IMG/VR virus record: IMGVR_UViG_3300034073_001962
Location: 1-21,506 of that record
Source of the DNA: a virus
Strand: one strand, 5' to 3'
DNA: 21,506 bases
In this document: piece by piece, positions 2,937 to 20,721 of the stretch
Numbering within the stretch: position 1 is the stretch's first letter
Layout of the letters: each line of letters starts with the position of its first letter
The notes under the pieces: model-generated
Database searches by the model: none
What the model was told of the DNA's origin: nothing
What the model saw: the letters and a program-made list of their open reading frames with translations, nothing else
Program-made: the position numbers and the translations under genes

Positions 2937-3140
2937 ATGACCAAATATATAAATTGGTATGACACTCGTCTACAAAAGAAGGAAGTCGACCAATTTTTTT
3001 ATGCCTTATCGGATATGTTAAACGAACTGAAGGCAGTTATGCCGGAGGAATATGACTATATATCAAAAAAATATGGTTTTTTTGAATATTCAACAGAATT
3101 TGAAAACTATTCGGTAAGGGTGGGGTTTAAAGATGATTGA
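2937..3140 (+). CDS. Hypothetical 67-residue protein
   Basis: A small acidic, aromatic-rich protein, first gene behind the internal promoter, with SD AAAGGA (2927-2932) and ATG 2937. Its end overlaps the portal start by eight bases, indicating co-translation. It has a probable helix (QFFYALSDMLNELKAVMP) and a Tyr/Phe-rich second half. No family is recognised. Position between terminase and portal would fit a small packaging or head accessory protein, but that is only inference. Confidence 0.65.
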   Translation: MTKYINWYDTRLQKKEVDQFFYALSDMLNELKAVMPEEYDYISKKYGFFEYSTEFENYSVRVGFKDD

Positions 3141-5184
3141 CAAGAAATTTAAGGGCAAAGATGTGCAACGTGAGATTTCAGACTATGTAATGGAGAAGTA
3201 TGACGAGTGTAAAGACAGGACGCAAATCGAGGCTCTTTGGACAAGACTATGGGATATATACAGGGGATTCTGGACTAAGGGGACGTATGAGGGGCGCGCA
3301 AATCTAGATTGGGCATCTGCCTATCAAGCGATTGAAATACTTGTGCCAAGAGTTCATCAGACGTTATTCCCGCGTAGAAAATGGTTTGACATAGTGGGGG
3401 TTGAGCAATCGGACGAAAAGCAAGCGCAACTTATGTCGAGTTATTTACGGCAGATATTTGAAAGGGACGTGCATTTCCGCCGGAAGATGATCGCCGGGAT
3501 TAGATATTGTGCGATATTCGGAACTATGATCGGTAAGACACCTTATCGAAAAGAGTCCGCAACCGTTCCCGTAAAGGTCAGAAAGAACCTCACAAATTTA
3601 TATGGACTATTCGCACCAGACTTTGAAGAAAAAAAGATTTTCACATTCGATTCAATCGATTTTGAACTGGTTGATATCTTCGATTTTTTTGTCGCTGATG
3701 ATTGCATCGATAGTATTGAGAATCAGCCTTTTGTTATTCACAAATCTAGTGAGTACATCGACACGTTATATAAAAAAGCATATAACGAAGAAACGGGTGA
3801 AGGGTGTTACGAGAACATCGACAAGATCACGAAAGACAAAGAAAGAATAAGGTCTGCATCCGAGAATAAATTTCAGCAGATGCGGCAAGGTCTTTTGGGC
3901 TACAAGACAAAAACAAGTTCACCGGCTCTTGACACGATTGACTTCATTGAATATCAAGGTGTGTACGAAGATGAGGATTGCGTTTTTGTTATTGCTAATG
4001 ACGGTGACACTAACCCGGTTGTTTCAGCGGAACCATTAAACACTCCCGACAAACAAAAGACGTTCGTAATGGCGAAATGGATTGACGTTCCGAGTGAGTT
4101 TTGGGGCATGAGTCCGATTGAACGAGTCGAGAAATCAATCTATGAATTAAATGACAGGGTTAATCAGACGATGGACGCTACAAGTCTCATCGTCAACCCG
4201 ATGTATTTAAATACAGACGCAGACATCCCCGAAGGAATTTTAAGAGCGCGTCCCGGTAGAATCATCTCAACCGCTACGGAGAATGGACTACGGGCAATAC
4301 ATCCGCCCGTTGAAGTATTGGCTCCTGCGTACTCGGCGATTGAAAGTCTTATCACTCACATTCAAGACACGACAGGCGCGACCAGATTCTTAGGGGGTTC
4401 TGCTCAAACACCTGAGTTGCAGAGAACGGCTACTGGTATTCTATCAATCCAAAAAGAAGCCATAGGACGGATAAACCTCACCATTCAAGGATTCGAAGAT
4501 ACTCTCATAATTCCCTTCCTACGAAAAGCCTACAAATACGCCCAATTCTACGGGGAAAGAAAAGAACTTGTCCGCATAGTCGGTAAACAAGGGATAGAGT
4601 ATCAGGAAGTCGATCCTGCGACGATTCTCGGTGATTACGATTTTAGACCGTTGGGTTCACAATCTAACGGCGCGGAAGAAATAGTCACACAGCAGATGAT
4701 AAATTACTTAAATATCGTCGCGCAGATTCCCGGCATAATTCAGCAGTTAGACGTGATGAAGCTCGCCACAAAGATCGGTGAGAAGATGCTCGGTCTTGAA
4801 GATATGGACGAACTTGTTTTGGTTAATAACCGCGAACAAGAGGAAACCGAAAAGGCAATATCTGAGAACATGGGTGCGATGCATGGAGTTCCACCGATCA
4901 TAACGGCGAACGACAATCATAGACTTCACATGGAAATACACGATGGTTTTATGCAAGATCCTCGCGCACAAGATTTCCCGCACACATTACAGCTGTTAGC
5001 TACTCACTTATCCGACCACGATAAATTTAGTAAGGGGCAGGGTTCACAACCGATGTATAACTCTGGCAATACTGGCTCACAACCAAGTGGACAAGGCGTC
5101 CCACCTCAAGAGATGCCTAGGGGTACAGATATGCAGAGTATGGTTCAGCAGATAGCGCAACCCAGCCAACAGGGGACGATGTAA
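3133..5184 (+). CDS. Portal protein
   Basis: A 683-residue protein; length and position directly after the terminase and before the scaffold and capsid genes fit the dodecameric portal that forms the DNA-entry vertex and docks the terminase. Supporting sequence: an N-terminal helical region (SAYQAIEILVPRVHQTLFPR, residues ~65-84), a central PSEFWGMSPIERVEKS stretch near 320 typical of large podovirus-type portals, a helical stem region around GFEDTLIIPFLRKAYKYAQF (~455-475), and a Gln/Pro/Gly-rich C-terminal tail (~630-683). ATG 3133 is preceded by GGGTGGGG. The stop overlaps the next small ORF in TAATG. The family call comes from general resemblance and synteny, not a signature motif. Confidence 0.82.
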   Translation: MIDKKFKGKDVQREISDYVMEKYDECKDRTQIEALWTRLWDIYRGFWTKGTYEGRANLDWASAYQAIEILVPRVHQTLFPRRKWFDIVGVEQSDEKQAQLMSSYLRQIFERDVHFRRKMIAGIRYCAIFGTMIGKTPYRKESATVPVKVRKNLTNLYGLFAPDFEEKKIFTFDSIDFELVDIFDFFVADDCIDSIENQPFVIHKSSEYIDTLYKKAYNEETGEGCYENIDKITKDKERIRSASENKFQQMRQGLLGYKTKTSSPALDTIDFIEYQGVYEDEDCVFVIANDGDTNPVVSAEPLNTPDKQKTFVMAKWIDVPSEFWGMSPIERVEKSIYELNDRVNQTMDATSLIVNPMYLNTDADIPEGILRARPGRIISTATENGLRAIHPPVEVLAPAYSAIESLITHIQDTTGATRFLGGSAQTPELQRTATGILSIQKEAIGRINLTIQGFEDTLIIPFLRKAYKYAQFYGERKELVRIVGKQGIEYQEVDPATILGDYDFRPLGSQSNGAEEIVTQQMINYLNIVAQIPGIIQQLDVMKLATKIGEKMLGLEDMDELVLVNNREQEETEKAISENMGAMHGVPPIITANDNHRLHMEIHDGFMQDPRAQDFPHTLQLLATHLSDHDKFSKGQGSQPMYNSGNTGSQPSGQGVPPQEMPRGTDMQSMVQQIAQPSQQGTM

Positions 5185-6299: not shown

Positions 6300-6988
6300 C
6301 AGAGGTAGCCGCACCTGAAGCAGAGCAACCAGAAGTCACGCCGATTGACGCACCGGAAAGTCAAGAGGAAGTAGCTGAAGGCGCACAGGAAAAAAGCCCT
6401 GAAGTTGACGTGAGTCAACAGATCGAGGAATTGAAGAACACGGTTAATAGGTTGCAAGACTTTATTAGGCGTGGGCATGAGGAGAAAGAGTCAACTCCGC
6501 GTGACATATCGGTTGAGGTTCCAAAGGATCCGCGCGATTTTCTAACGAAGTTCGCAGAGAACCCACAGGACATCATCGAGAAAGTCATTCAGAAAACGAT
6601 TGCCCCTCAACAAAATGTTCTTCTTGATATTCAACGGAATCAAGCGGTTGATTATATCCGTTCCCAAAAAGACTATACGGATAAGATGCTTGATGAAATT
6701 TTATTCATCGTTGAAGGTCAAGACCGGAACAGATGGTTTCAGGTCGGCAATACCAGTTACCAGTTGAAAGATCTCCCACCCAGGCAGAAAGCCGAAGCGG
6801 CACTTCAAATCTATCGTGAAAAAAGCAACGTAGTAAAACAACAACAACAACAGCAACAACCTCGTCCTAAGCCGGTGACGACGGTAAAGACTCAGAAGCA
6901 ACCAACGGCTAAAAAAGCCGACAAGGAGATGAGCGCAGAAGAATTTTTAAAGTTTCACGGGTTAGACAAAAGGATAGAGGGGTTGTAA
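6251..6988 (+). CDS. Scaffold-like head assembly protein
   Basis: A 245-residue protein. Start ATG 6251 is chosen because of the strong SD GAAAGGAGA (6237-6245); an in-frame ATG at 6221 has no SD and adds ten residues. The N-terminal ~55 residues are acidic, Glu/Pro/Ala-rich and probably disordered; then comes a coiled-coil-like helix (QQIEELKNTVNRLQDFIRRG), a helical middle, a Gln run (KQQQQQQQPRPKP) near 196-208 and a Lys-rich C-terminus. This composition and the place directly between portal and major capsid are typical of phage scaffolding proteins, which chaperone capsid assembly and then leave. No protease domain is visible. Confidence 0.72.
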   Translation: MSDEKIAVNPTDETTVTEVAAPEAEQPEVTPIDAPESQEEVAEGAQEKSPEVDVSQQIEELKNTVNRLQDFIRRGHEEKESTPRDISVEVPKDPRDFLTKFAENPQDIIEKVIQKTIAPQQNVLLDIQRNQAVDYIRSQKDYTDKMLDEILFIVEGQDRNRWFQVGNTSYQLKDLPPRQKAEAALQIYREKSNVVKQQQQQQQPRPKPVTTVKTQKQPTAKKADKEMSAEEFLKFHGLDKRIEGL

Positions 6989-7002: not shown

Positions 7003-8690
7003 ATGGTTATGCAAGATACTGGTGATGCCGGTTTAGCGGCGTTACTAAATACTTATTACACGAAGCGCGCTTTGGAACGTATGGTTCCTCAGCTTCATTT
7101 TTATGAAAGCGCAGAAAAACGTCCGTTGCCAAAAGGCACAGGGAAAACGATTGACTTTTTCCGTTGGACGAATTTATCAAGAATTAAATCAAACCTTACG
7201 GAACTTACTGCACCGACTCAGATCGGTTTAAGTTCTGCTCGCGTGACAGCGACGTTGATTCAACGCGGTTCATATTCGATGATCGACGAACTCGTTGATT
7301 TAACTGCTCGTTCACCTATGGTTGAAGCTCAAGTTGACCTTCATTCAGAGGAAGCGGCAAAAACAGTTGATGGGTATATCGCCGATGTTATCGGTTTCCG
7401 TGTAGCTGACGTTGTAAAACGCAGTTCATTACGCGTTAATCACGGTGGGACGCTCAACTCAACAGGTATCGGTGTTCGTATCTATTCCGGTTCAGACGAT
7501 ACCGATTCATTCCCGATGTATATTAACAAGACTCGTATCACGACATCTGCAACGGTTGTTGGTACTACGAAGTCGGCCTTGTCGTTAAAAGCCATTCTTC
7601 ACGGCGTAAGCATTTTAAAAGGTAGAGATGCACAGCCGATGGCTGATGGTTATTATCACGGGTTCTTACATCCGGTTTGCGAATATCATTTGATGAGCGG
7701 AACGGGTTGGAAAGGTTGGTTGAAATATACCGATCCTAGTCCAGTTCGTAGCTATGCAACTGGTATTATCGCCGGTGTAAAATTCTTTATTTCATCTGCG
7801 GCACCGCGCTTTGCTCTTTCTGGCGATACACTCGCTACGGGAACTGCGGCAATACACGGAACGATCATCGTTGGTCGTGGCGCGTATGGTGTAACGGAAA
7901 TCCCAGAATCCGGTCAATCTCAAGGGTTCAGGATGTACGTTAAGAAATCGGGCGACCAGAGTACGGCTGATCCGATCAACCAAAAGATGACGTGTGGTAG
8001 AATTAAATTCCAGCCTCACGTAAAAAACAACGAGAATTCGGTGAATCTCCAGAACGGACAACACCGAGCCGAGCTTCAAAACGAAGAAGGTGTAGAGACT
8101 ATGTACGTTGCAACGATAGTTGAAGATATAGTCCGAACTATACAGGAATGTATAGAGCATGACAGAAATGCTCATGCCGAACTGAGGATGGCGGCTTAAA
8201 TGAAACTCATTGGTGAAAAAGCATTAACTGGCGCAGAGAGACAAAGACGTTATAAGGCGAGAAACCCACTAAAGGTTCAAGCTAGTGCGATGAAATATCT
8301 TGCTAATAACGCAGATGTCAACCGCATTAACAAACGTGAATTTATGAGAAAAAATAGGGTTAAAGCAACCTATTGGAAGAAATCTTATAAAGAACGGTTT
8401 GGTAGTGTGTGTGAGATATGTGGTGAGAGTAGGGCGTTTGATATTTGCCACATAATACCAGTTAACCAAAATGGTGAGACAGTTGAATGGAACATATTAA
8501 TATTATGCCCAACTCACCATCGTCTTTTTGACCAAAGGAAATTATCTGATACCGAATATAACAAGGTGGCAGATAAAGTGTTAATTGCCAAAGATCAGTT
8601 TAGTAACAAAGTTTGTGGAAGATGACAATGGCGGCGAAGGTTCTTAATAAGTCTGCCGGTGTTATTCTCATTAGCACAGAGGTTGCGTAA
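7003..8690 (+). CDS. Major capsid protein, N4-gp56 type, split by intron
   Basis: Read as join(7003-7998, 8616-8690): 332 + 24 residues, 356 in total. ATG 7003 follows a good SD (TTTAGGAGA). Exon 1 has the N4-gp56 family pattern: YYTKRALERMVPQLHFYESA near 19-38, RPLPKGTGKTIDFFRWTNLS, a LTELTAP segment, RGSYSMIDELVDLTA and HSEEAAKTVDGYIADVI, then DPINQKMTCG at its end. Exon 2 begins W K M T M A A K V L N and ends ILISTEVA; the junction CG|WKMTMAAKVLN resembles the conserved ending of this family as I recall it. Without splicing, exon 1 reads 66 unrelated codons into the intron and stops at 8197-8199. The protein would form the icosahedral head shell. A stem-loop follows at 8705-8728. Confidence 0.92.
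7999..8615 (+). ncRNA. Self-splicing group I intron in the capsid gene
   Basis: A 617-nt intron whose core can be paired by hand. P1: exon bases 7990-7998 with 8013-8021, eight of nine paired (one T-T mismatch), closing with the required U-G wobble at the 5' splice site (T7998-G8013). P10: 8008-8012 (TTCCA) with exon-2 bases 8616-8620 (TGGAA). P3: 8028-8032/8106-8110. P4: 8038-8043/8062-8067. P5: 8048-8050/8056-8058. P6a: 8074-8077/8083-8086. P7: GACTAT 8097-8102 with ATAGTC 8128-8133, the latter in a canonical S element AAGATATAGTCC. P8: 8111-8114/8119-8122 with a GATA loop. P9: 8138-8143/8150-8155; P9.1: 8155-8160/8168-8173. The last base is G8615 (omega G). The HNH ORF fills the segment after P9.1. 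Confidence 0.93.
8200..8625 (+). CDS. Intron-encoded HNH homing endonuclease
   Basis: A 141-residue protein that would cut intron-less copies of the capsid gene and so spread the intron. The HNH fold is clear: CEIC at 71-74, DICHIIP with His84 (81-87), Asn98 in WNILIL, and CPTHH at 103-107; the Cys pairs form the structural zinc site. The N-terminal half is basic (GAERQRRYKARNPLKV) and probably binds DNA. The ATG directly follows the stop of the unspliced capsid reading frame (TAAATG, 8197-8202), so translation may be coupled to it; GAGGA at 8184-8188 is a distant SD. The stop (8623-8625) lies ten bases into exon 2, so a complete endonuclease can come only from unspliced RNA. Confidence 0.9.
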   Translation: MKLIGEKALTGAERQRRYKARNPLKVQASAMKYLANNADVNRINKREFMRKNRVKATYWKKSYKERFGSVCEICGESRAFDICHIIPVNQNGETVEWNILILCPTHHRLFDQRKLSDTEYNKVADKVLIAKDQFSNKVCGR

Positions 8691-9317: not shown

Positions 9318-9907
9318 TTGGTCGTTGCAGTAAAGATATTGAATTAGAGGAACTTCAAAAGGAGCGGTTAGCAGAGAAGGCTGAATATGCTCGTTTGCTT
9401 GACGGCGTTAAAAAGATGAAGATTGACGCTGAAGAAGTAATGGCTCAAGCACAAAAAGAAAAAGAAAACGTGCTGGAAGAGAAGGCTCGCATTGATGAAC
9501 TTGTAAGTCAGCAACAGTTAAAGACACAGTTCGCAGAAGCGAAGGTTGCAGTTGTTGAGAACTCAATTCGTGAGGCTGAGGTTGAGAAACAAAAATACAT
9601 AAAATTACAAATTGAATCTAAAAAGCGCGTTGAAGAAGCGAAGCAATATGAGGAACAGATGAAGGCTCAACTTTTTGAACTCAATGGTATGAGACAGAGT
9701 TTAGCAAGCGCGCCGAACAACATAAAAGCAAAAGAAGATGAACTTAACGCATTGATCCGCGCAAACCAAGAAAAAGAAACTGAGTTATTAAGACGTGAGA
9801 AGAAGGCTAACGATGATTATAGGAACAACGTAATTGACGCGGAATCAAACAGAAAAAAAGAAGCTGAACTAGTTGAACTTGCAAGGAAACTAAAGGTTAA
9901 TTTATGA
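9314..9907 (+). CDS. Long coiled-coil protein
   Basis: A 197-residue protein that is almost entirely charged heptad-like helix (for example KEKENVLEEKARIDELVSQQ), Glu/Lys/Ala/Gln-rich, with no signal peptide or membrane segment. Only a short GMRQSLASAPNN break near 131-142 interrupts the helix. It is joined by ATGA overlaps to the genes on both sides (9314-9317 and 9904-9907). It could be a rod-like virion component, a fibre-attachment protein or a chaperone for the downstream fibre proteins; the sequence gives no catalytic clue. Confidence 0.65.
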   Translation: MIGRCSKDIELEELQKERLAEKAEYARLLDGVKKMKIDAEEVMAQAQKEKENVLEEKARIDELVSQQQLKTQFAEAKVAVVENSIREAEVEKQKYIKLQIESKKRVEEAKQYEEQMKAQLFELNGMRQSLASAPNNIKAKEDELNALIRANQEKETELLRREKKANDDYRNNVIDAESNRKKEAELVELARKLKVNL

Positions 9908-10266
9908 GCCTAAAGGGTTTTGAAGTTTTCCAAATATTGAAGTCAAGCGGTCAAGCTATTGCTATAAATGAAACTGCGACCGTTTATACGGACGTTGTTA
10001 ATCTTGGACGGCACGAATACTTCGGGGTTGCGTTTCAAGCATCATCAGGGGGGACGATTGCATTAAAGGTTGAAATTGAGAACTCTGTGGACGGCACTAA
10101 CTTCGCCGTTCCTGACGATGTATCTGACATAGTAAGTGCATTGGCAGACTCAAATCTGCACGTTAAGCGGTTGTCCGTTGATCGGACTCCGTACATTAGA
10201 TTTAAAATTACGGGGAACGCTGGTAATGCGGCTACTACTAAAATTAATATTTATCTTGTTGCTTAG
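9904..10266 (+). CDS. Small beta-rich structural protein
   Basis: A 120-residue protein predicted to be mostly beta strands (ETATVYTDVVNLGRHEYFGV, IALKVEIENSVDGTNFAV, TPYIRFKITGNAGN). Alternating hydrophobic residues and the SVDGTNFA motif resemble small phage proteins such as head-decoration or fibre-connecting domains. No signal peptide is present, unlike the five genes that follow. The start overlaps the coiled-coil gene by four bases; the 3' end overlaps the next gene by 41 bases if that gene starts at 10226. The family is not recognised. Confidence 0.65.
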   Translation: MSLKGFEVFQILKSSGQAIAINETATVYTDVVNLGRHEYFGVAFQASSGGTIALKVEIENSVDGTNFAVPDDVSDIVSALADSNLHVKRLSVDRTPYIRFKITGNAGNAATTKINIYLVA

Positions 10267-12604
10267 TCAATCTTGTGCGTTCGCTCAATGGAACGAGAAG
10301 GTTGATTTGACACCAACTGGTGCTGTTGCAAACGGAGTAGATACATTAGTTACTGGTGATGCTGTTTATGATGCGATAGCGTTAGCGAATAGTGATTATC
10401 TACTTAATAATGCAGACGATACAACGAGTGGTTCTTTATGGGCGGTGAATTATTACGCATCAGGTGATGTGGTTGTAACGGATGATATTTTTTCCGACCA
10501 AATAACTGCACAGGCAGGGAATGGTAGTATTATTGCTCTACCAGCCGCAGGGGCAATAATTGTTAAAGATGATGTCGGAACTGGTGGGTATATAAGTTTC
10601 GGTGCGAATAGCGCAAGTTTAGGTTTATCGAGGGATGGAACGGTTGATGGATATGACTACGATGGTGCATTTATATTTGAGCAACAGGGAACAGACGCAG
10701 ACGAATATGGTGAGTTTATTTGGATGGAGGAAAACGGAAATTGGCGGTTTGCTCTACCAAAGTCACAGGCAGGGATGGGGACATATAATCCACGTTCAAT
10801 GATTATTGCCGGACCGTCTGTTAATACACGAAATAATTTTATAGGCACATATTGGGGATTTGATAAAGTTGATATGGCGACATCTACAACTGGTGCTGAC
10901 TTGGGTGTGCAGGATGATGTTGAGATAAATGGAACGGCATGGATAGACGAAAATTTAACTGTGGCATCGACAGTATGGGCAAACGGTAAAATGCTTATAT
11001 CGAAGGATGATTTAACTCCAACCGGAGCAGTTGCGGACGGTTCAACTAATTTGTGCACGTCAGATGCGATATACGATGCAATCGCTTTAGTAAGCGGTTC
11101 AAGTGATACCGATTGGACGGAGAGCGGTAATGTTGTTTCTACTGACGATTCAGTTCAAATCAATTCAAACGCGACAATAAGTGGTAGATTGACAGTTGAT
11201 AATGAAATACACGCTGACGCTTTTTACGGTGACGGGAGTGGATTAACTGGTGTTGCTGGTTCTGGAGATATAGAGGGTGTTAATGTTAGCGGTCTATTAG
11301 GTGGTGGTGGAGATAGTGGAACGGTTACAGTATCGTTAGGTGTTATTGATTTGTCAAGTGATAGCACCGTTAGCGGAATACTCGCCACAACTCATTTACC
11401 GGCTAATGTATTTTTGGACGCAGATTTAACGGACGCAAATAACAAATGGATAGGTGCAACTTATCCTAGTTTAGATACTGATTCAACCGATGATTTCACA
11501 TGGGACTATGACTATGGTGATTTAATTAATACTCCTGATGCGGTGTTGAACGACGATCTAACTAATAAGGTAACTAAAGTTGCAACCGTTGGTACATGGG
11601 ATACAGACGTATCAGATGATTTTGATGGCGCATATTCCTCGTTAACTGGAACACCGTATATTCCTTTAGTTCCATTCGATATATCAAGCGACGATACAGT
11701 AACTGGCATACTAGCGGAAACACACATACCAGACGGCACAACAACTGATCCTATTGATTTTACTAATGCCTCAGTTACAAATCTAACTGTTGGCAATAAC
11801 CTTTCTCTTGATGGTGCGGTATCCCCATCAGGTGTAGCATACTTTATGTTACAGGATGCTTCTGGGCAGTATCTAGGTAAATCATCGGTTGCATACCCAA
11901 CAACAGATGGTGCGTCTGCACCAGGAGGTGGATTCACTCAAGTAACTACACAAATATTAACAACCGGTACTGGGGAGACATACACCCCGACATCTGGTGC
12001 TACATACTTTGAAATTTGGGTTACTGGAGAAGGTGGTGGTGGCGGTGGATCAGACGGTGACGGTTCGTCATTCGGTGGTGCAGGAGGAGGCGGTGGTGGC
12101 GGTACTGCTTACAGAGTTATGACAGCTACAGAGATGGGTGAAAATGCAGTTTATACAGTTGGTTCTTCTGGCGGTGGCGGCGGGAGTGGCACGGACGGAA
12201 CAAGTGGTGCTAACGGTGCGGCTAGTACATTTTATGCGGCTGGAACCGGCCCTGACTTAACTGGTTCTGGTGGATTAGGTGGAACTGGTACAGGTGTATT
12301 ATCCGCTGGTGGTGCGTTCCCAGGTGGTGCTGGTAGCGGTGGGACGTCAAGTGGTGGTCAAGTTATTTATGGTAACTCTGGGGGATGTGGTACTGGTTCA
12401 GATAATATATTCGGTGCTAGTGGAACTGGCGGTGGTTCTTTTTTTGGCGGTGGTGCCGTAGGTCGTTCTTCAAATGGTGCTGGTATTTCAGCGTCAGACA
12501 ATACTGGTGCTGGTGGTAGTGGCGCAGTAACAATAGATACTAATACTGGTTCTGCCGGTGGAAATGGTGGAACTGGGATAATTATTATAAAGGAATACAA
12601 ATAG
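10226..12604 (+). CDS. Exported tail-fibre-like protein with Gly-rich tip
   Basis: A 792-residue protein. ATG 10226 is preferred over an in-frame ATG at 10136 because it begins a textbook Sec signal peptide (MRLLLKLIFILLLSQSCAFA, probable cleavage AFA|QW) and GGGG lies a few bases upstream. After it come two copies of a LTPTGAVA(N/D)G... D(A)(V/I)YDAIAL module (~residues 28-53 and ~260-288), low-complexity Asp/Thr/Gly-rich beta repeats with FYGDGSGLTGV (~residue 335), and a ~190-residue Gly-rich C-terminus ending in GGTGIIIIKEYK. Such Gly-rich ends occur in phage fibre and adhesin tips and may form polyglycine II helices. The fibre architecture with a signal peptide is unusual: it should leave the cytoplasm. 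It shares a SDTDWTESG module with the protein at 12893. Confidence 0.82.
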   Translation: MRLLLKLIFILLLSQSCAFAQWNEKVDLTPTGAVANGVDTLVTGDAVYDAIALANSDYLLNNADDTTSGSLWAVNYYASGDVVVTDDIFSDQITAQAGNGSIIALPAAGAIIVKDDVGTGGYISFGANSASLGLSRDGTVDGYDYDGAFIFEQQGTDADEYGEFIWMEENGNWRFALPKSQAGMGTYNPRSMIIAGPSVNTRNNFIGTYWGFDKVDMATSTTGADLGVQDDVEINGTAWIDENLTVASTVWANGKMLISKDDLTPTGAVADGSTNLCTSDAIYDAIALVSGSSDTDWTESGNVVSTDDSVQINSNATISGRLTVDNEIHADAFYGDGSGLTGVAGSGDIEGVNVSGLLGGGGDSGTVTVSLGVIDLSSDSTVSGILATTHLPANVFLDADLTDANNKWIGATYPSLDTDSTDDFTWDYDYGDLINTPDAVLNDDLTNKVTKVATVGTWDTDVSDDFDGAYSSLTGTPYIPLVPFDISSDDTVTGILAETHIPDGTTTDPIDFTNASVTNLTVGNNLSLDGAVSPSGVAYFMLQDASGQYLGKSSVAYPTTDGASAPGGGFTQVTTQILTTGTGETYTPTSGATYFEIWVTGEGGGGGGSDGDGSSFGGAGGGGGGGTAYRVMTATEMGENAVYTVGSSGGGGGSGTDGTSGANGAASTFYAAGTGPDLTGSGGLGGTGTGVLSAGGAFPGGAGSGGTSSGGQVIYGNSGGCGTGSDNIFGASGTGGGSFFGGGAVGRSSNGAGISASDNTGAGGSGAVTIDTNTGSAGGNGGTGIIIIKEYK

Positions 12605-12612
12605 GGGGATGT

Positions 12613-12882
12613 ATGAAAATAGTATTAATTAGTTTATTGATTTTACTTACTGCGTCGTATTCATTCGCGGCTCAAGTCTATACGACAAAGATTGCGTACG
12701 ACGGATCTGGTAATCCAGAATATATCGGGAAAGCACCGACCGGAACATCAATATTAGTTGGTGGGTGGCAGATCAAGAAATTAGTGTACGGAGTGAGTGG
12801 GGTTACTGATGTTCTCTGGTGCAACGGAGATAATAATAGCAGTTATGTGTGGAATGATCGCGCAAGTTTAACTTATAAATAG
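12613..12882 (+). CDS. Small secreted protein
   Basis: An 89-residue protein with a clear N-terminal signal peptide (MKIVLISLLILLTASYSFAA, cleavage near SFA|A or FAA|Q). The mature ~69 residues are beta-rich (YTTKIAYDGSGNPEYIGKAP, later ILVGGWQIKKLVYGVSGV) with one Cys. The SD is AGGGGGAT overlapping the stop of the preceding gene. The mature protein may be a fibre-associated or surface protein; no family is recognised. It sits between two large signal-bearing fibre-like proteins and has the same junction sequence on both sides. Confidence 0.7.
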   Translation: MKIVLISLLILLTASYSFAAQVYTTKIAYDGSGNPEYIGKAPTGTSILVGGWQIKKLVYGVSGVTDVLWCNGDNNSSYVWNDRASLTYK

Positions 12883-12892
12883 GGGGATATAG

Positions 12893-14470
12893 ATGAGGAC
12901 ATTAGCGTTCATATTATTGGCATTAGTTTTATTGTGTGGAACAGCTAATGCCGCATTTAAGTATATTGATAAAGATTTACAGGACGAAGGTCTTGACTAT
13001 TACGAGTCTGCTACGGCATTAACTAAAGTAGTTGAGACAGCTGGTGGCGTTCAAGTCACGGGTGATCTAACATCAACGGCGAACATAACGGCGACAGCTG
13101 GGTTGTTCGGCGCAACTTTAAATACTGGGCAAGGCAATTACGAACTATACGCCATGAACCAAAACGTGCAAACAACCGACGATGTTCAGTTAAAGAGTTT
13201 GAGTGTATCAAACAATTTAAGCTCGATAGATGCGACTTTTGTTGGTAAAGTTGAAACGGTTAGAGGAACAGTAGGTTCTGGATTGGGTGTATTCCCCGTT
13301 GGTGCTAATGCGTTTTCAGCCATAGAAGTTGAAGCTGGGGAGGGTGGTATTGCATATCTATATTTAACTGCTGACCAATATGACAACACGACAACAGATA
13401 GAGCAATAATAAGAAAGAACGATAGCGGAACATTGGACTTTGTTAATGTTGCAACGCAAGGTCTTTCGATGGGGACAGACGGTCAACTATCGTCTTTGAA
13501 TTTAACGGCTTCAGGTGCGGTTTCTGCATCAAAGTTTAATAGCGGATTGGGATTTTTTGAGATTGGGCAGGATTTACAGACAACAGATGCGGTTACATTT
13601 GCGACTGTTGATACTGGTCAAGGTGCAAACGAACTATATGACATGAATCAGAATGTCCAAACTACTGACAATGTAACCTTCGGGAACCTAACTGTATCTA
13701 CCGAGGCTTGGATTGGCGCACAATGTCTATTACGGGATAATGGCGGTGGTGATTTTGAGTTTTCAGAGGATAGCGGTAGTTCATGGTCTGATGTCGGCGC
13801 ATCTGGTTCAGATACAGATTGGACGGAATCTGGTGGCACAATATCAACGGACGATATGGTTGTAATGGCATCATGGCTTACGGTTGATTCATCTAGTCTG
13901 GTTGTTAATGCGGACGATGATTATGTTGGGATTGGAACGGCAAGTCCAAGAGATACATTACACGTTGTTAGTAACGCAGATATTGACGGGAACTTATCGG
14001 TCGATACGGTCAATGCAAGGACGATAGCTGGTTCTGGTAGTGGCGCAGCGACCATAGGGAATTTGAATGTGACGAGCAATTTAACGGTCAATGGTGGCGT
14101 TGTAACTGGTGACGATGTATTTGCACCGAGCTATGTTAACCCAACTGAATTAAGTAAGCAGATTCATTTCTATATTGACGATGACAGATACCCACATGGA
14201 GCGACAATTACGAACTTCATGGCGAGTCGTAATCTAACTCAAGCGGGTGATTTATCGGCGAATTGCTATATCGGCACATACGGTAAGGCTGGGTTTACGG
14301 CTGATAGTACGGCTGAATCATTAACATTTACTGAAAATCTGTTTGTAATTGAAGATAACGGAACGATTGATAATGCGACTGTTGCGGCTGGTAAATATAT
14401 TGTTGTTGACGTTGGTAAAGCGGCAACTGCATTAGTAAACTGGCAGGTCATATTAAAGAGAGAGGATTAA
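12893..14470 (+). CDS. Exported tail-fibre-like repeat protein
   Basis: A 525-residue protein with a signal peptide (MRTLAFILLALVLLCGTANA|A). The body carries recurring fibre motifs: NQNVQTTDDVQLKSLSVS and NQNVQTTDNVTFGNLTVS (two copies about 160 residues apart, each after a TGQG(N/A) element), QDLQTTDAVTFATV, and DDYVGIGTASPRDTLHV near residue 345, a motif common in phage fibre shafts. A SDTDWTESGGTISTDD stretch is shared with the 10226 protein. The C-terminal ~110 residues, from ATIGNLNVTSNLTVNGGVV onward, look like a globular beta domain ending in ALVNWQVILKRED. SD AGGGGGAT precedes ATG 12893. It is probably a fibre or adhesin, but the Sec signal is atypical for a virion component. Confidence 0.8.
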   Translation: MRTLAFILLALVLLCGTANAAFKYIDKDLQDEGLDYYESATALTKVVETAGGVQVTGDLTSTANITATAGLFGATLNTGQGNYELYAMNQNVQTTDDVQLKSLSVSNNLSSIDATFVGKVETVRGTVGSGLGVFPVGANAFSAIEVEAGEGGIAYLYLTADQYDNTTTDRAIIRKNDSGTLDFVNVATQGLSMGTDGQLSSLNLTASGAVSASKFNSGLGFFEIGQDLQTTDAVTFATVDTGQGANELYDMNQNVQTTDNVTFGNLTVSTEAWIGAQCLLRDNGGGDFEFSEDSGSSWSDVGASGSDTDWTESGGTISTDDMVVMASWLTVDSSSLVVNADDDYVGIGTASPRDTLHVVSNADIDGNLSVDTVNARTIAGSGSGAATIGNLNVTSNLTVNGGVVTGDDVFAPSYVNPTELSKQIHFYIDDDRYPHGATITNFMASRNLTQAGDLSANCYIGTYGKAGFTADSTAESLTFTENLFVIEDNGTIDNATVAAGKYIVVDVGKAATALVNWQVILKRED

Positions 14471-14471
14471 T

Positions 14472-15020
14472 ATGAGGATATTGATATACATACTTCTTTG
14501 CTTGTGCCTCTGTATGACAACTGATGCGAATATCGTTGGTAGTCAGTTTGTGGGGGTGACGGCGAGCGGGGGTGAATTTGTCGTTCTAGCTGGCGATACT
14601 GGTGATTATAGCGGTGGGACAACTAGAACGACTGCTGCGAATACCTATGGTTTACAATATGTTGCCGTTGCGACTGGAACGCTCACTAATGGATATTGGT
14701 ATTCTTACGAAATAGATACATCGGATAGTCGCATGGTTGTTTATAATTCTGCCGATAGTAAAATAGCAACGAGTGATTTACTGGGGACAACACTGGAAGG
14801 AACAACTGAATATGCGTTTAGTGGAGATCAACAAGTTACAATTACCAGTGGGCAGACGTATAGAATTTGTATAGCACCACTGGCGGCTATCAATACTAAG
14901 GCTGGCGGTACAAATACTATACCGTGGGCCGATGCTTACAATCCACCACCAGCGAGTTTCGTTGCGGACGGTAGTGATGATTGGGGTCCGTGGCAGATGT
15001 ATATAAAGGGTAATACATGA
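14472..15020 (+). CDS. Secreted beta-sandwich, carbohydrate-binding-like protein
   Basis: A 182-residue protein with a signal peptide (MRILIYILLCLCLCMTTDA|N); its Cys residues do not form a proper lipobox, so signal peptidase I cleavage is favoured. The mature part looks like a jelly-roll or beta-sandwich module: TGTLTNGYWYSYEIDTSDSR, ATSDLLGTTLEGTTEYAFSG, QQVTITSGQTYRICIAPL, and PPASFVADGSDDWGPWQMYI. Aromatic-rich, Gly/Thr-rich sandwiches of this kind often bind sugars or other fibre subunits. The start is one base after the preceding stop; the 3' end overlaps the next gene by four bases. Function is inferred only from overall appearance. Confidence 0.7.
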   Translation: MRILIYILLCLCLCMTTDANIVGSQFVGVTASGGEFVVLAGDTGDYSGGTTRTTAANTYGLQYVAVATGTLTNGYWYSYEIDTSDSRMVVYNSADSKIATSDLLGTTLEGTTEYAFSGDQQVTITSGQTYRICIAPLAAINTKAGGTNTIPWADAYNPPPASFVADGSDDWGPWQMYIKGNT

Positions 15021-16426
15021 AAAAGTTTCTATTCATACCAATATTATTATGGTGTTCTGTTTGTTACGCTACTCCAGCGATAACGTCAATTAATTTGTCT
15101 CTGTCTGGTACTTTTGACGGAGTAACAAGGGTAATCACTGGTACTGGTTTCGGAACTAAGGCGACTGCGGCACCGATTGTTTTCGATGACTTCGACAGTG
15201 GTTCAGTTAATGCTAATTGGGGATATGATTATAGCCAAGATGACTATCAAACTGTTGTGACTGATGTTAAACATAACGGCGGGTATGCACTAGAGGGTGA
15301 GTACGCCGTTGGTTCTGGTTCATCTGGTTGTTACGCTGGTGCATTTAATAGCTACGCTGGTTCTGGATATAACCAATATTGGTATGTTTCGTTTTGGTTT
15401 AGAAAGAACTTCACCTGGGGAACTGCTGGTGATGTTAAGTTCGGTAATTATAAACTAAATAGGTTTAATAATAATTCAGACTCAACGAATTGCTATGTAG
15501 AATTAGCAGCTGGTGACAACGCCAAACGAACAATAGAGTATGGCTCTGGTACGAAATACTGGTCATTTAATAGAGATAGCAATATACCATCAAATACATG
15601 GGTATTCTTGCAAACATGGTGGAAAGTTGGGGATAATAGTGATGGTGCTATGGGGTTTAGTTGTAATAGTAATGTGGTGTTCAATGAAACTGGTCTAGAT
15701 TTTGGGGCAAGGACAACACTTGATGAGCAGATATATGGTTTTTACAACGCACGAGGGCAAAGCACATTTGCTGGCGAGAAGGTTTGGATTGACGAGATGT
15801 ATGTCGATAAGTCATGGGCAAGGGTAATAATCGGAGACCAACCAGTATATTTAAATTGTACCAAATACGCTATGCAAATACCTTCTGCATGGGCTGACAC
15901 TGAAATTACGGTAACACTTAATCAAGGTAGTTTCACTGGTGCAGAAAATATGTATTTATTCGTAGTAGACTCAACTGGTGCGGTATCAGACGGGTTACTC
16001 ATAACTGGTGATGCTGGTATAGAGGAAGGCGATGACGATAATACACCTCCTAGTATTGGTGGATTTAACCCAAGTAATGGTGCAACTGGTGTGGCAGTTG
16101 ACACCTCAATCGTCTTTGTAGTATCAGACGGGGCATCTGGGATTGACCTTGACTCACTTACATTATCAAATGCAGTATCAGTCAATAACGTATCAATGGT
16201 GTCTGGACTATCAACAACTGGCAATAAGTCATCAGTGACATGCACACTTGATAACGCTGACCTCGGTAACTTCGAGCAAGGTGAAACAGTAACGGTTGGC
16301 GTTAATATAAAGGACTTATCGGAGAACTCAGTTCTTACAACATGGGACTTCACAACGGAAGATAACACATTTCGGCAAAACGCAGAAACAATAACTCTAA
16401 ACGGTCAGACATTGGAGCTAAAATGA
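15017..16426 (+). CDS. Exported multidomain adhesin or lyase-like protein
   Basis: A 469-residue protein with a signal peptide (MKKFLFIPILLWCSVCYA|T). Domain order: an IPT/TIG-like strand region (PAITSINLSLSG then RVITGTGFGTK, ~19-48); a ~210-residue concanavalin-like jelly roll (FDDFDSG..., YWYVSFWFRKNFTWG, TWVFLQTWWKVGDNSDG, KVWIDEMYVDKSWARV, ~55-270) resembling polysaccharide-lyase or LamG-type folds; an acidic linker (EEGDDDN, ~335-341); and a bacterial Ig-like domain (TPPSIGGFNPSNGATGVAVD to VLTTWDFTTED, ~342-450). The combination is typical of secreted polysaccharide-binding or -cleaving proteins. Catalytic residues cannot be identified. It starts in a four-base overlap and ends overlapping the next gene by four bases. 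Confidence 0.75.
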   Translation: MKKFLFIPILLWCSVCYATPAITSINLSLSGTFDGVTRVITGTGFGTKATAAPIVFDDFDSGSVNANWGYDYSQDDYQTVVTDVKHNGGYALEGEYAVGSGSSGCYAGAFNSYAGSGYNQYWYVSFWFRKNFTWGTAGDVKFGNYKLNRFNNNSDSTNCYVELAAGDNAKRTIEYGSGTKYWSFNRDSNIPSNTWVFLQTWWKVGDNSDGAMGFSCNSNVVFNETGLDFGARTTLDEQIYGFYNARGQSTFAGEKVWIDEMYVDKSWARVIIGDQPVYLNCTKYAMQIPSAWADTEITVTLNQGSFTGAENMYLFVVDSTGAVSDGLLITGDAGIEEGDDDNTPPSIGGFNPSNGATGVAVDTSIVFVVSDGASGIDLDSLTLSNAVSVNNVSMVSGLSTTGNKSSVTCTLDNADLGNFEQGETVTVGVNIKDLSENSVLTTWDFTTEDNTFRQNAETITLNGQTLELK

Positions 16427-16890
16427 AAATATCACTAAACACATCAAATACAAGTAAACTAAACCTTAAATCAGAATTAAACACAGATGTATCTGCATTT
16501 CATTTTAAGGTATCGGGATTACCGATTAAGTCAATAGTCTGTCATGACACAAACAAAATCGTTGATTATAACAATGAACATATCGTTGTATATGGGATGA
16601 ACAAGCTGAATGTAATGAATGGTGACTTACTCACTATTGAGTTTGATCTGCCGAACAATTACGGAACATACAATGTAGCTCTCACACCGCTTGATGCAAC
16701 TACGGGACTCGCTGAACGCAGAACGGTTGAGAAAGGTAGTGATGGCATAATCGCCATTACGTTTTCACAAGCTGATTTGGTGGAGGCGGTTTCTACGGTG
16801 GTTACTCGGATAACTACTGGTCTTGATATAAACTATGATGGTCTGTGTGACATCATTGACGTTCAACTTATAGCAAACAATTTGGGGTGA
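16423..16890 (+). CDS. Cohesin-like domain with a dockerin-like half repeat
   Basis: A 155-residue protein without a signal peptide. The N-terminal ~110 residues are beta-rich and resemble a cohesin fold in pattern (VSAFHFKVSGLPIKSI, then HIVVYGMNKLNVMNGDLLTI, then FDLPNNYGTYNVAL). The last 21 residues (from Asp135) match a dockerin F-hand half repeat: calcium ligands in DINYDGLCDIIDVQ, followed by LIANNLG. In cellulosomes dockerins bind cohesins, so the protein may mediate assembly of the exported proteins encoded just upstream. Only one half repeat is visible where dockerins normally have two, which weakens the call. The start is in ATGA overlap with the preceding gene. Confidence 0.6.
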   Translation: MKISLNTSNTSKLNLKSELNTDVSAFHFKVSGLPIKSIVCHDTNKIVDYNNEHIVVYGMNKLNVMNGDLLTIEFDLPNNYGTYNVALTPLDATTGLAERRTVEKGSDGIIAITFSQADLVEAVSTVVTRITTGLDINYDGLCDIIDVQLIANNLG

Positions 16891-16892
16891 TT

Positions 16893-17177
16893 ATGACAGA
16901 CATCGAAAGCAGACTAGCAAGAGTCGAGACCAAGATACTTGACCTTGAGGAACAAAATGTAACATTATGGAGATTACATGATACACACGCAACCGAGTTC
17001 AGAAATGAGATTCGGGCGTTACTTGAGAAGTTAATTGACCGAATGGACATGTTACCTTGTAGGTCTCATATCCAGAAATTCAACAGTTACGATACTCAAT
17101 TCAAGTTAATCTGGGCATTCATTATATCGGTCATTATAGGTGGTATTGTTTTAGGGTTTTGGGTTCATGGGAGGTAA
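16893..17177 (+). CDS. Holin-like, XhlA-type membrane protein
   Basis: A 94-residue protein: an N-terminal amphipathic coiled coil (SRLARVETKILDLEEQNVTL), a hinge with PCRSH, and a single membrane helix at the C-terminus (LIWAFIISVIIGGIVLGFWV). This matches the general plan of XhlA-type lysis proteins. ATG 16893 with GGGG (16884-16887) is preferred to a GTG at 16887 that overlaps the previous stop. It is followed by a small gene and a papain-like hydrolase, making a probable lysis group. A membrane anchor for another process is the alternative. Confidence 0.7.
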   Translation: MTDIESRLARVETKILDLEEQNVTLWRLHDTHATEFRNEIRALLEKLIDRMDMLPCRSHIQKFNSYDTQFKLIWAFIISVIIGGIVLGFWVHGR

Positions 17178-17178
17178 T

Positions 17179-17346
17179 ATGATTGAGAAATTGGTTGATA
17201 AGATTGAGAGTCTGAACGACAAGATAAAGGACAGGGTTGAGAATATCCCACCCGAACGAAAAGCGGCATACGAGAAACTTATCGGTCTAGCGATTGAATA
17301 CGGTCTTAAATATGCGGAGAATGCCTTAAATGAAAAAATCAAGTGA
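17179..17346 (+). CDS. Small helical protein (55 residues)
   Basis: A 55-residue ORF with an ideal SD (GGGAGGT, 17169-17175) just before ATG 17179, one base after the preceding stop. The sequence is charged and helical (KLVDKIESLNDKIKDRVENI, then KLIGLAIEYGLKYAENALNE), with no membrane segment. Its end overlaps the next gene by 17 bases. The position inside the putative lysis group suggests an accessory or regulatory role, but no family is recognised. Confidence 0.7.
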   Translation: MIEKLVDKIESLNDKIKDRVENIPPERKAAYEKLIGLAIEYGLKYAENALNEKIK

Positions 17347-17875
17347 GTTCACTCTAGACATACCCAAGATGGGTTATTTCCTTCTAGTAAAGCATGATAA
17401 AGGTCTAATCGGTGACATGATTAAGGCGGCACAGCTAAAAGAAGGGTTTAATGGCGAACATGCAAGTTTCACACATGTCGAGGTTATGGGTGGTGGGCAA
17501 TGGTCTGTATGCGTTGCGTATCCATCAACATCGGTAATTGACATAACAAAGAGATATAAAGGTCGGAAGGTCAAGATTGTCAAATATAAAGAGTATAGCA
17601 ACGAGCCAACCGATGCGTTATATCATAAGAAATACAAGGTCGCATTTTGGGCGGCATCACATTGTAACCTTAAATATGACTTTAGAGGTGTTGTTGGATT
17701 TGTATTGAATGCGGTCAAACACGCAAAGAACCTATTCTTCTGTTCCGAGAATTGCTTATGGGCATTACAGAAAGAGTTCCCGAATGCGTTAAATCTTGAG
17801 CCAGAGAAATGTATGCCAGCTCATTTTGCTGATCGAAAGAATTTCGTAACTGTGTGGGAAGGTATTATCAACTAA
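17330..17875 (+). CDS. Permuted papain-like (NlpC/P60, YiiX-type) hydrolase
   Basis: A 181-residue protein. Features of the circularly permuted NlpC/P60 superfamily are visible: a His-bearing strand FTHVEVMGGG (His49) precedes the nucleophile region NLFFCSENCLWALQKEF (Cys138), and a MPAHFAD segment follows near 162-168. These enzymes cleave peptide or amide bonds in peptidoglycan or act on lipids. Placed after a holin-like gene, it is a reasonable endolysin candidate, although it has no cell-wall-binding domain or signal peptide. ATG 17330 has no clear SD and overlaps the previous gene, so it may be translationally coupled. An alternative role is cleavage of peptidoglycan during infection. 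Confidence 0.7.
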   Translation: MKKSSEFTLDIPKMGYFLLVKHDKGLIGDMIKAAQLKEGFNGEHASFTHVEVMGGGQWSVCVAYPSTSVIDITKRYKGRKVKIVKYKEYSNEPTDALYHKKYKVAFWAASHCNLKYDFRGVVGFVLNAVKHAKNLFFCSENCLWALQKEFPNALNLEPEKCMPAHFADRKNFVTVWEGIIN

Positions 17876-17888
17876 CCAAAGGAGGGTT

Positions 17889-19505
17889 ATGTTTTTTTCA
17901 ATCATTATTCCATGTGCTAAAAAAGACCAGAGATACATACGGAGATGTTTGCTGTCTTTACAAGATCAAGACTATAACGGGTGGGAGGCTATTGTTGTCT
18001 ACGATGGCTTCGATGGCGGCAATGTTATTGACGATATGAGAATAACATACCTAAAGACCAACATGAAGAAGGGTGCATCCCATGTTAGAAACTACGGCGC
18101 AAAAAAAGCAAAAGGTGACACATTCTTATTCTTCGATGCTGATTGCGTTCTGTTCCCCGGCGTATTAACTCTGATCGCTGACACGTTTGAAAGAAATGAG
18201 TGTGACTTCGTATATGGTGGGTACAGATTCAACCACTCAACACTAAGCGTTTATCCGTCCAGACCATTTGATCCCTATTTACTTAAATGTATGAATTACA
18301 TCTGTACGATGTCCCCAATGAAGAAAGAAGTCTTTGAAAAGGTCGGTGGGTTCAATGAGGACTTACCATACTTTCAAGATTGGGACTTCTGGCTAAGGGC
18401 GGTAAAGAACGGCGCAAAAGGACATTACATAAGGGACTTCTTATTTCAAACTGAGGTTCCAAACGCTAAGTCAATAAGCGGTGGATTAAACTATAAATGG
18501 CGTGAGAAGGTTTTAAGACTTGAGTCATTACATAATCTTCCTAGTATGGATGTGTGCGTCACAACATTGTCGGCTCCGTATCAATCAATCGAAAGAGCAA
18601 AGGCGTTAGGCGCAAGATACTTGGGTAGTCATAACGGATCTAACTTGGTTCAGACTCCAGCCCAATTCAATTTTGGTGCAAGGGCGGTAATAGTCCAGGG
18701 GTTCTTCCCGATGAATGTTGAGGATCACATGGCTCTATTTCCGGAAGGTTGTATAAAGGCTATTAATTGGATTGGGACGGACGTATGGCAACTTCGTAAT
18801 AAGTTCTCACATGAGTCATTAAAGATATTTAAAGAGAGATGGTTAAGTCAGATTGACATCCAGATGTGCAACAGCGAGATATTGCAAGAGGAACTAGCTG
18901 AGATCGGAATAAAGGCGGATGTTGTTTATCAGCCAATAACAGAGAGTATTGATGTTACACCTCTACCTAAGGTGCCTACGGTTTCAGCTTATTTCTCAAA
19001 AGGACACCCACTCCACAACGAATTTTATTATAGAGATTTAGCACAATCAATGCCGGACGTTAATTTTATATTTTTTGGAACCGGATTGAGGGATACCCAA
19101 GAAGGGAATATTCGTTTCATGGGGTGGGTTCCTATTAACGAGGCGGTCAAGATGACGACCTTACATCTTCGTCTAACCGCCCATGACGGTTTTCCTCATA
19201 CTCCAGTTTATATGCTGTTAGGTGGTCGCAGGGTTCTGTGTAATTTCCCGTTGAAGTTCGCCGATTACGTTCCCGATGTTCCGTCTGAGGCATCATGGGA
19301 ATCACTCAAGACTAAGGTTGTTGCCCATATCAGATCTCATTTAGATGGTAAGCTAGACTATAAGGTTGAAGATTGTAGGGATTATTACAACGAACTCTGC
19401 GATCCGATAAAGTATAAGCGGATCGTCATGGAGAAGATCAACAATTTCGGCAAGGAGAAAAAAAGTGAAGAAGCCAAAAATATCGTGTGTCCTTCCAACG
19501 TATAA
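17889..19505 (+). CDS. Two-domain glycosyltransferase (GT2 plus GT-B-like)
   Basis: A 538-residue protein with a strong SD (AAAGGAGGG) before ATG 17889. Residues 1 to ~205 are a GT2 GT-A domain: FFSIIIPCAKKDQ, AIVVYDGFDGG, the metal-binding DAD at 83-85 in LFFDADCVLFPG, and GGFNEDLPYFQDWDFWLRA with an ED and WD pair. Residues ~220-500 look like a second, GT-B-type transferase (FFGTGLRDTQEGNIRFMGWV, HDGFPHTPVYMLLGGRRVL near 431-450). The GT-B catalytic EX7E motif is not intact: His replaces the first Glu and Tyr stands where the second is expected. The fusion could add two sugars in sequence. The 3' end overlaps the next gene by 41 bases. Confidence 0.8.
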   Translation: MFFSIIIPCAKKDQRYIRRCLLSLQDQDYNGWEAIVVYDGFDGGNVIDDMRITYLKTNMKKGASHVRNYGAKKAKGDTFLFFDADCVLFPGVLTLIADTFERNECDFVYGGYRFNHSTLSVYPSRPFDPYLLKCMNYICTMSPMKKEVFEKVGGFNEDLPYFQDWDFWLRAVKNGAKGHYIRDFLFQTEVPNAKSISGGLNYKWREKVLRLESLHNLPSMDVCVTTLSAPYQSIERAKALGARYLGSHNGSNLVQTPAQFNFGARAVIVQGFFPMNVEDHMALFPEGCIKAINWIGTDVWQLRNKFSHESLKIFKERWLSQIDIQMCNSEILQEELAEIGIKADVVYQPITESIDVTPLPKVPTVSAYFSKGHPLHNEFYYRDLAQSMPDVNFIFFGTGLRDTQEGNIRFMGWVPINEAVKMTTLHLRLTAHDGFPHTPVYMLLGGRRVLCNFPLKFADYVPDVPSEASWESLKTKVVAHIRSHLDGKLDYKVEDCRDYYNELCDPIKYKRIVMEKINNFGKEKKSEEAKNIVCPSNV

Positions 19506-20166
19506 TAACGCCGCCTTCTTGCCGAGGACGTTAGACAGCCTTGTTAAGCAGACATTAAAAGACATTGAGATAATCGTTGTTGATGATTGTTCTGACGACT
19601 CAACAAAGCAAGTGCTTACGTTCTACAAGAAGAAATACAAGAACATAAAGACATCTTATATGGATAACCGAAGGGGTGCGGCAGTATGCAGGAACTTCGG
19701 CAATATGATTGCTAAGGCTGATTTGATTATGGTCTGCGACTCTGGTGATGTGAACCATCTTGATCGCGCAAAGAACGCATACTATTTCTTTAAGAAATAC
19801 CCGGACGTTGATATATATTCAACTGCTTGTATTGAGACGAACGCTATTGACGAACACATTGACTTACATTATCCGAGAGTATTTAGTGACAAAGAGAAAC
19901 CGAGTCTGTTTCATCCAACGGTCACATACCGTAAAGAAGTAACGGACAAGATTAAGTATCGGGAAGGTAATCTGGCAACCGATCAATACGAGGCGTTCTT
20001 CATCGAGGCGTTTAGATGTGGGTTCAAGTTTTGGCACACAACAGACGGATTCGTTAAGAAGCTACGGCAGGATGTATCGGTTGAACGCGCAAAGCAAAGA
20101 GTAGAGCAGAGGAAGAAGAACTTTAAGGAGTTCGGTATTGAAACGGATAATGACAATAGGGTGTAG
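19465..20166 (+). CDS. GT2 glycosyltransferase, paralogue of the 5541 gene
   Basis: A 233-residue protein starting at GTG 19465 with SD AAGGAGA (19452-19458), giving MKKP as in its paralogue at 5541. It shows ISCVLPTYNNAAFLPRTLDS, IIVVDDCSDDST (DD at 40-41), a CDSGD metal site at Asp92/Asp95, and the shared distal block HPTVTYRKEVTDKIKYR...TDQYEAFFIEA (~150-181). The similarity indicates an old duplication within this phage or acquisition of two related enzymes. Its Lys/Arg-rich C-terminus differs from the paralogue. It sits in the right-hand glycan cassette, overlapping both neighbours. Confidence 0.83.
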   Translation: MKKPKISCVLPTYNNAAFLPRTLDSLVKQTLKDIEIIVVDDCSDDSTKQVLTFYKKKYKNIKTSYMDNRRGAAVCRNFGNMIAKADLIMVCDSGDVNHLDRAKNAYYFFKKYPDVDIYSTACIETNAIDEHIDLHYPRVFSDKEKPSLFHPTVTYRKEVTDKIKYREGNLATDQYEAFFIEAFRCGFKFWHTTDGFVKKLRQDVSVERAKQRVEQRKKNFKEFGIETDNDNRV

Positions 20167-20671: not shown

Positions 20672-20685
20672 GGAACAGAAGCAGA

Positions 20686-20718: not shown

Positions 20719-20721
20719 GAT

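Follow-up and report, generated by a model that had tools for sequence, protein, structure and literature searches.

Five consecutive genes with predicted Sec signal peptides in the receptor-binding slot of an N4-gp56 capsid phage

According to the textbook view, virions are assembled in the cytoplasm. Known uses of Sec signals by phages are SAR endolysins, spanins and antiholins. Exported phage products also include Lom of lambda, Cor of HK022 and Llp of T5, the former two being encoded near tail-fibre genes. These are small outer-membrane proteins or lipoproteins and are not fibre-like. In a limited search of the open-access literature, which is weak evidence, no description of runs of tail-fibre genes that carry signal peptides was found. 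The nearest match in this search was an account of Porphyromonas gingivalis phages (proposed family Nixviridae) with five signal-peptide genes of unknown function, which follow the Bacteroidetes Q rule (PMC10367356).

We analyzed a virus record of 21,506 bases from IMG/VR (in the following, the window), which is probably a fragment and represents a partial N4-gp56-capsid phage. A first-pass annotation had claimed that five consecutive fibre- or adhesin-like genes of this DNA each start with a Sec signal peptide. Both the signal peptides and the coordinates of the genes held up, with the scores given in Table 1.

Gene content of the window

The TIGR04387 score of the major capsid protein lies above the curated cut-off of 60, which identifies the window as part of an N4-gp56 capsid phage. 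The terminase large subunit is divided over two frames. A twin contig in IMG/VR (L002) is 99.99% identical, carries the same genes and shows the same split, so that a sequencing error is unlikely. The twin supports the assembly of the window and is not a case of independent evolution. Scans of IMG/VR with the portal and the capsid of the window retrieved only this near-identical twin, and an alignment of seven capsids was too diverged to serve as a search profile. Among genome contigs, one binned with Patescibacteria gave the best matches of portal (E 3e-30) and capsid (E 1e-28), while the best genome match of a window fibre was a Zixiibacteriota chromosome. No hub or adaptor gene, and no other neck or tail gene, was seen within the 21.5 kb. 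Promoter scans gave no excess over shuffled sequences (24 vs. 25.5) and terminators little excess (9 vs. 5.3).

In addition, an HNH protein and several glycosyltransferases are encoded in the window. The glycosyltransferases are found at 17889-21339 together with an apparent polysaccharide-deacetylase-like gene, and similar modules occur near the N4-gp56 capsids of a Manatee Spring podovirus and of Patescibacteria-binned contigs (L003, L195, L196). Directly 3' of the five-gene run, the protein encoded at 16423-16890 carries a dockerin-like C-terminal segment (DINYDGLCDIIDVQLIANNLG).

Table 1. Coordinates, scores and matches of the features in the window and in other contigs
Feature	Sequence	Position	Strand	Score, match or remark
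Terminase large subunit, two frames	Window	1313-1987 and 1984-2868		ATPase-like and nuclease-like, 4 nt overlap; phrog_2 / phrog_10250
Portal protein	Window	3133..5184	+	phrog_332 E 2.6e-31, phrog_1216 E 6.8e-26
Likely scaffold	Window	6221-6988		
N4-gp56 family major capsid protein	Window	7003..8199	+	TIGR04387 98.1 bits; phrog_1357 E 4e-37
120-aa structural-module protein without signal peptide	Window	9904..10266	+	phrog_28213 E 5e-7; upstream neighbour, overlaps 10226
792-aa fibre: signal peptide (1-20), shaft, GDGSGLTG motif, Gly-rich tip	Window	10226..12604	+	Score 10.3; phrog_863; likely cut MRLLLKLIFILLLSQSCAFA then QWNEK
89-aa small protein: signal peptide (1-19/20), mature part ~69 aa	Window	12613..12882	+	Score 9.0; no family match; likely cut MKIVLISLLILLTASYSFA then AQVY
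525-aa fibre: signal peptide (1-20), shaft repeats, VGIGTxxP motif, C-terminal tip	Window	12893..14470	+	Score 10.3; likely cut MRTLAFILLALVLLCGTANA then AFKY
182-aa protein, moderate signal peptide	Window	14472..15020	+	Score 6.5; no homologue found; likely cut TDA/N, MRILIYILLCLCLCMTTDA then NIVG
469-aa adhesin-like protein: signal peptide (1-18), middle region, C-terminal bacterial Ig-like Big_5 domain	Window	15017..16426	+	Score 8.2; likely cut MKKFLFIPILLWCSVCYA then TPAI
155-aa protein, dockerin-like C-terminus, without signal peptide	Window	16423..16890	+	No Pfam match
Holin/XhlA-like protein, coiled coil and C-terminal membrane helix	Window	16887..17177	+	phrog_1193 E 0.0015, phrog_689 holin E 0.018
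Probable lysis or peptidase-type protein	Window	17330..17875	+	phrog_1128 E 1e-10; peptidase resemblance from sequence alone
Signal-bearing SU10-family adaptors	L193; L215; L214	10353-11015; 7768-8463; 8988-9713		Three diverged Zixiibacteriota-binned phages
Run of four signal-bearing genes	G391:C48	36856-41190		One gene with weak beta-helix match
Four consecutive genes with signal peptide or anchor	L014	3844-7236		One gene with Laminin_G_3 domain
Tandem signal-bearing proteins with fibre-like shaft repeats	L141	5935-16247		Zixiibacteriota chromosome

The five-gene run forms a tight operon with gaps of 1-10 nt or overlaps of 4-41 nt. It is located between the capsid genes and the holin/endolysin-like genes, in the slot where receptor-binding proteins are usually encoded. 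The description of the products as fibre- or adhesin-like is well supported for 10226, which matches the phrog_863 tail fibre family (E 6e-21) and has a Gly-rich tip (Gly_rich_2, E 6e-4, below the cut-off), and for 12893, the shaft of which consists of NQNVQTTD..TF repeats. It is reasonable for 15017, where Big_5 was found above the cut-off (E 1.9e-9). For 12613 and 14472 it follows from position and size only; profile and homologue searches gave no family match or homologue for these two, and searches did not confirm a suspected likeness between 12613 and a small protein of phages. Neither a phage fibre family (phrog) match nor shaft repeats were found for 12613, 14472 and 15017, and none of the five proteins matches a lysis family (SAR endolysin, spanin, antiholin). 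When 50,697 GenBank phage records were searched by tblastn with the five proteins, of which 12613 and 14472 were represented by their mature parts, no match was obtained. AlphaFold2 predictions made from the mature parts of 15017 and 14472 without alignment were unusable (mean pLDDT 32 and 35). The five proteins contain 2, 1, 2, 1 and 5 cysteines, respectively, from which no disulfide argument arises for the window.

Signal peptides were predicted by a home-made score, which considers the charge of the n-region, the hydrophobic core, the residues at -3/-1 and the start of the mature part. In a calibration with E. coli K-12 proteins, 17 of 17 annotated exported proteins scored at least 7. A score of at least 6 was reached by none of 48 cytosolic proteins and by one of the 16 polytopic membrane proteins. 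By this measure a positive n-region, a hydrophobic core of 7-15 residues and small residues at -3/-1 are present in all five proteins. Four of the signal peptides are strong and one is moderate, whereas none was found in the 22 other genes of the window (scores of at most 1.02). The weakest of the five is that of 14472, which has a weaker c-region containing an aspartate and for which the scoring script favoured a cut other than that in Table 1. Whole-protein shuffles of the five proteins reached a score of 6 in 0.25-2.7% of cases. As background, 36 of 792 ORFs in 83 viral loci score at least 6 at any early start (4.5%, including false positives); at this rate, five in a row would be expected by chance with a probability of about 2e-7. 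If five of 27 genes bear signals, all of them will be neighbours by chance with P = 2.8e-4.

The leaders of the five proteins differ from one another, and thus one leader cassette was not simply copied. G-rich Shine-Dalgarno-like sequences are located upstream of four of the starts, and GGGGA is found upstream of 10226. The start of 10226 overlaps the 3' end of the gene before it by 41 nt; therefore the N-terminus of 10226 is the least independent of the five. Inspection of the five N-termini by eye revealed no h-region that ends in a lipobox consensus (L-[ASTVI]-[GAS]-C). It is confirmed at the level of prediction that the five genes begin with classical Sec/SPase-I signal peptides.

Signal peptides on fibres and neck proteins of other phages

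We surveyed IMG/VR contigs for the fibre motif Y-G-D-G-[ST]-G-L-T-G, which gave 103 matches with a visible 5' end. Nine of these reach the threshold: the twin of the window, L051/L085, L072/L109, L084, L140, L053, which was judged a spurious start, and L060, which is counted with reserve because its phage context is uncertain. Signal peptides are thus borne by the motif fibres of 5-6 independent phages including the window, or about one in twenty. The phage represented by L072/L109 and the longer contig L145 (G001) has a portal related to that of the window; its recognisable fibre-like genes are all signal-bearing, and no other recognisable fibre genes are present. L084 encodes an N4-gp56-type capsid. 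The siphophages L051 and L140 (G003 and G005) are related to each other. Among the phages related to the window by their N4-gp56 capsid (25-26% identity) and likewise by their late gene order are the Manatee Spring podovirus MW202801 and Bacillus phage Page. The former has one signal-bearing protein in fibre position, after the hub and a small gene, and no signal-peptide run; the first 25 kb of the latter contain neither a run nor a signal-bearing fibre. The hubs of G001 and MW202801 are without signal peptide, which indicates that export often concerns the fibres only.

The first-pass annotation had also recommended a search for such runs beside N4-gp56 capsids in other phage genomes. Four-gene runs were found in L014, with signal peptide or anchor, and in G391 (see below). 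That of L014 adjoins an HK97-type capsid gene, i.e., another capsid than that of the window. On the other side, no signal peptides were found on fibre genes of the gut N4-gp56 contigs L018, L019 and L021 or of the podovirus MW202803. The shaft repeats of 12893 are common to signal-less phage fibres (L006-L012) and to the signal-bearing phage protein of L014. They also match a signal-bearing protein of the Zixiibacteriota chromosome L141 (36% identity, E 3e-16), where such proteins are encoded in tandem as in phages. Unlike in a prophage, no capsid, portal or lysis genes were found alongside in the 20 kb examined. Signal-bearing proteins with shaft repeats can therefore be cell-surface proteins.

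The siphophages G003 and G005 (capsid proteins 65% identical) allowed the conservation of signal peptides to be followed. Their tail operon encodes a tape measure, a 252-aa protein, a large protein regarded as hub by its position, a small protein of 90-95 aa and, after it, the signal-bearing fibre, the first 89 residues of which are 47% identical between the two. A scan of IMG/VR with their capsid gave a clade in which seven distinct members have a capsid identity of 58% or more. All seven encode, between capsid and head-tail adaptor, a protein of about 130-150 aa with a signal peptide (scores 7.8-10.5; L158, L160-L165), for which a scan of one member gave no Pfam or PHROG match. On average, the signal region is 25% and the mature part 53% identical, and the mature part contains two invariant cysteines. 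This pattern is as expected for a functional signal peptide on a putatively extracytoplasmic, perhaps disulfide-bonded protein.

Zixiibacteriota genomes were searched with the N4-gp56 capsid and the SU10 adaptor family (PF24175), which led to the contigs G391:C48, G421:C198, G458:C81 and G467:C42. The assignment of these and of the Patescibacteria-binned contigs depends on the binning of phage contigs with host genomes, which can be wrong. The portals of G391, G458 and G467 show no mutual BLASTP match. All three phages have two tandem genes in adaptor position, the first without and the second (SU10_adaptor, PF24175) with a signal peptide (scores 11.1, 10.0 and 6.8, respectively); in G421, a signal-bearing gene without family match occupies the second position. 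The hub (phrog_511/3287) adjoins the second adaptor. It has a clear signal peptide in G458 (8.9), and in G391 and G467 a hydrophobic signal-like N-terminus, which failed the score because the n-region is long. In G391, G458 and G467, no signal peptides were found on the portal, the capsid, the first adaptor and the large downstream proteins, which are probably ejected with the DNA. The partition between head and tail is not perfect, since one more signal-bearing gene is found between portal and capsid in G391 and likewise in G458. If the contig of G391 is circular, its four-gene run is followed by a putative endolysin and holin (lysis roles assigned from sequence), comparable to the window. 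No signal peptides were found on the adaptors and hub of the control contig G455 of the same phylum, nor on the adaptors of four Patescibacteria-binned contigs.

Possible functions of the exported proteins

We propose that the five genes might serve a short-tailed N4-gp56 phage as its receptor-binding/adhesin block and that their products are made as Sec pre-proteins. At a late stage of infection, the products would be translocated by the Sec system of the host and cut by signal peptidase I. The exported fibre proteins would fold and oligomerise outside the cytoplasm while the heads are filled inside. Holin and endolysin, encoded just downstream, would then open the cell, and the exported parts would meet the heads and complete the virions. 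We give such a two-compartment assembly, with the five genes as exported receptor-binding block, an even chance of being correct. Judged from the leaders and from their conservation in the parallel cases, export itself is well supported; we infer that the proteins are actually exported, that their mature forms are located on the virions and that the parts join at or after lysis. For T4 and P22, it is a classical observation that heads and tail parts produced separately can be joined in vitro. To our knowledge, the tailed phages whose virions have been closely studied assemble them in the cytoplasm, which counts against the model. Further points against it are the signal-less hubs of G001 and MW202801, the lack of a recognisable domain in two of the five proteins, the chromosomal shaft-repeat proteins of L141 and the imperfect partition between head and tail in G391 and G458.

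The first-pass annotation had offered three meanings for the signal peptides: coating or alteration of the host surface, maturation of the fibres outside the cytoplasm, and membrane anchoring. Maturation outside the cytoplasm appears the most probable of these, at about even odds, and is favoured by the receptor-binding slot upstream of the lysis genes in the window and in G391:C48, the fibres of G001 and the signal-bearing SU10-family adaptors. Under the coating alternative, which is the main rival, the exported proteins would never join virions. They would coat the infected cell or its debris or block the receptor, so that superinfection is prevented or progeny are not lost to debris, or they would bind matrix glycans. 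We regard this as rather unlikely. The export signals are real also under this reading, the Gly-rich, Ig-like and shaft domains fit adhesion, and similar exported shaft proteins are encoded on bacterial chromosomes. Exported proteins of the tail region are known in Lom of lambda and Cor of HK022. The five signal-peptide genes of the P. gingivalis phages are proposed to modify the outer membrane of the host (PMC10367356). However, the run lies in the fibre slot of the late operon, five proteins are many for receptor masking, and G001 would be left without ordinary fibres. Coating also does not explain the exported neck proteins of other phages, since adaptor and hub of the Zixiibacteriota-binned phages have no obvious role outside the virion. 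As these two proteins lack an evident non-virion use, their export would serve virion assembly, and the relatives, by their predicted leaders, favour proteins of the virion exterior over surface coating. We extend the virion-assembly reading to the window by analogy, as it might apply there given the related capsid, the comparable gene position and the same kind of leader. The strongest argument thus comes from other phages, because the window is without hub and adaptor genes.

The remaining readings seem less probable still. If the hydrophobic N-termini were uncleaved membrane anchors or virion-docking helices, the proteins would not be released; long hydrophobic segments or poor cleavage sites in the hub of G391, the fibre of L145 and the second gene of L014 point in this direction, as does the weak c-region of 14472. 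This fits poorly with the short h-regions followed by AxA-type sites in four of the five window sequences and in all seven siphophage orthologues, and we consider it improbable. It is even less probable that the genes are captured host surface-protein genes, carried as passengers and used by the host only. The match of the 12893 repeats to the Zixiibacteriota chromosomal protein speaks for such an origin, but ordinary phage fibres contain these repeats as well, the genes are embedded in the structural-lysis operon, and no break in composition was seen. Coincidence or mis-annotated starts, i.e., N-terminal extensions that are untranslated or non-functional, would be in line with the overlap of 10226 with the preceding frame; this we judge highly improbable in view of five adjacent genes against none of 22, the Shine-Dalgarno-like sequences, and the signal peptides of other phages, which were kept despite sequence turnover. 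The further suggestion that the glycosyltransferases and a cohesin/dockerin-like protein decorate or assemble the fibres found no support. Neither bears a signal peptide, and glycosyltransferase modules also lie beside N4-gp56 capsids where no signal-peptide run was seen (Patescibacteria-binned L195, L196).

Returning to assembly in two compartments, the occurrence of such tags on tail parts of distantly related viruses suggests that tails may be assembled outside the compartment in which heads are made. Tentatively, there might be a class of tailed phages in which DNA-filled heads are closed by the first adaptor in the cytoplasm and are joined by a Sec-exported tail exterior when the cell opens. 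This exterior would comprise the second adaptor, hub, fibres and spikes and would fold outside the cytoplasm, and it is conceivable, with similar reserve, that the run of the window is its fibre part.

Implications and comparison with known systems

If some phages export their fibres, and other lineages apparently an adaptor and a hub, the secretion system of the host would be needed for head-tail joining, and the host range would depend on it as well. The same would hold for fibre folding, with regard to disulfides and periplasmic chaperones. Receptor-binding proteins of uncultured phages are otherwise hard to recognise, and signal-peptide runs upstream of lysis genes would provide a sequence rule for them.

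Compared with Lom, Cor and Llp, the proteins of the window include fibre-like ones and show no lipobox consensus. The P. gingivalis phages resemble the window in having several Sec-signal genes suited to the signal peptidase of the host, and use of host secretion was proposed for them as well (PMC10367356). They differ in that their genes are proposed as modifiers of the outer membrane, and a fibre run, an adaptor or a hub is not stated in the relevant passage of that article, whereas the five genes of the window are located in the slot of receptor-binding proteins.
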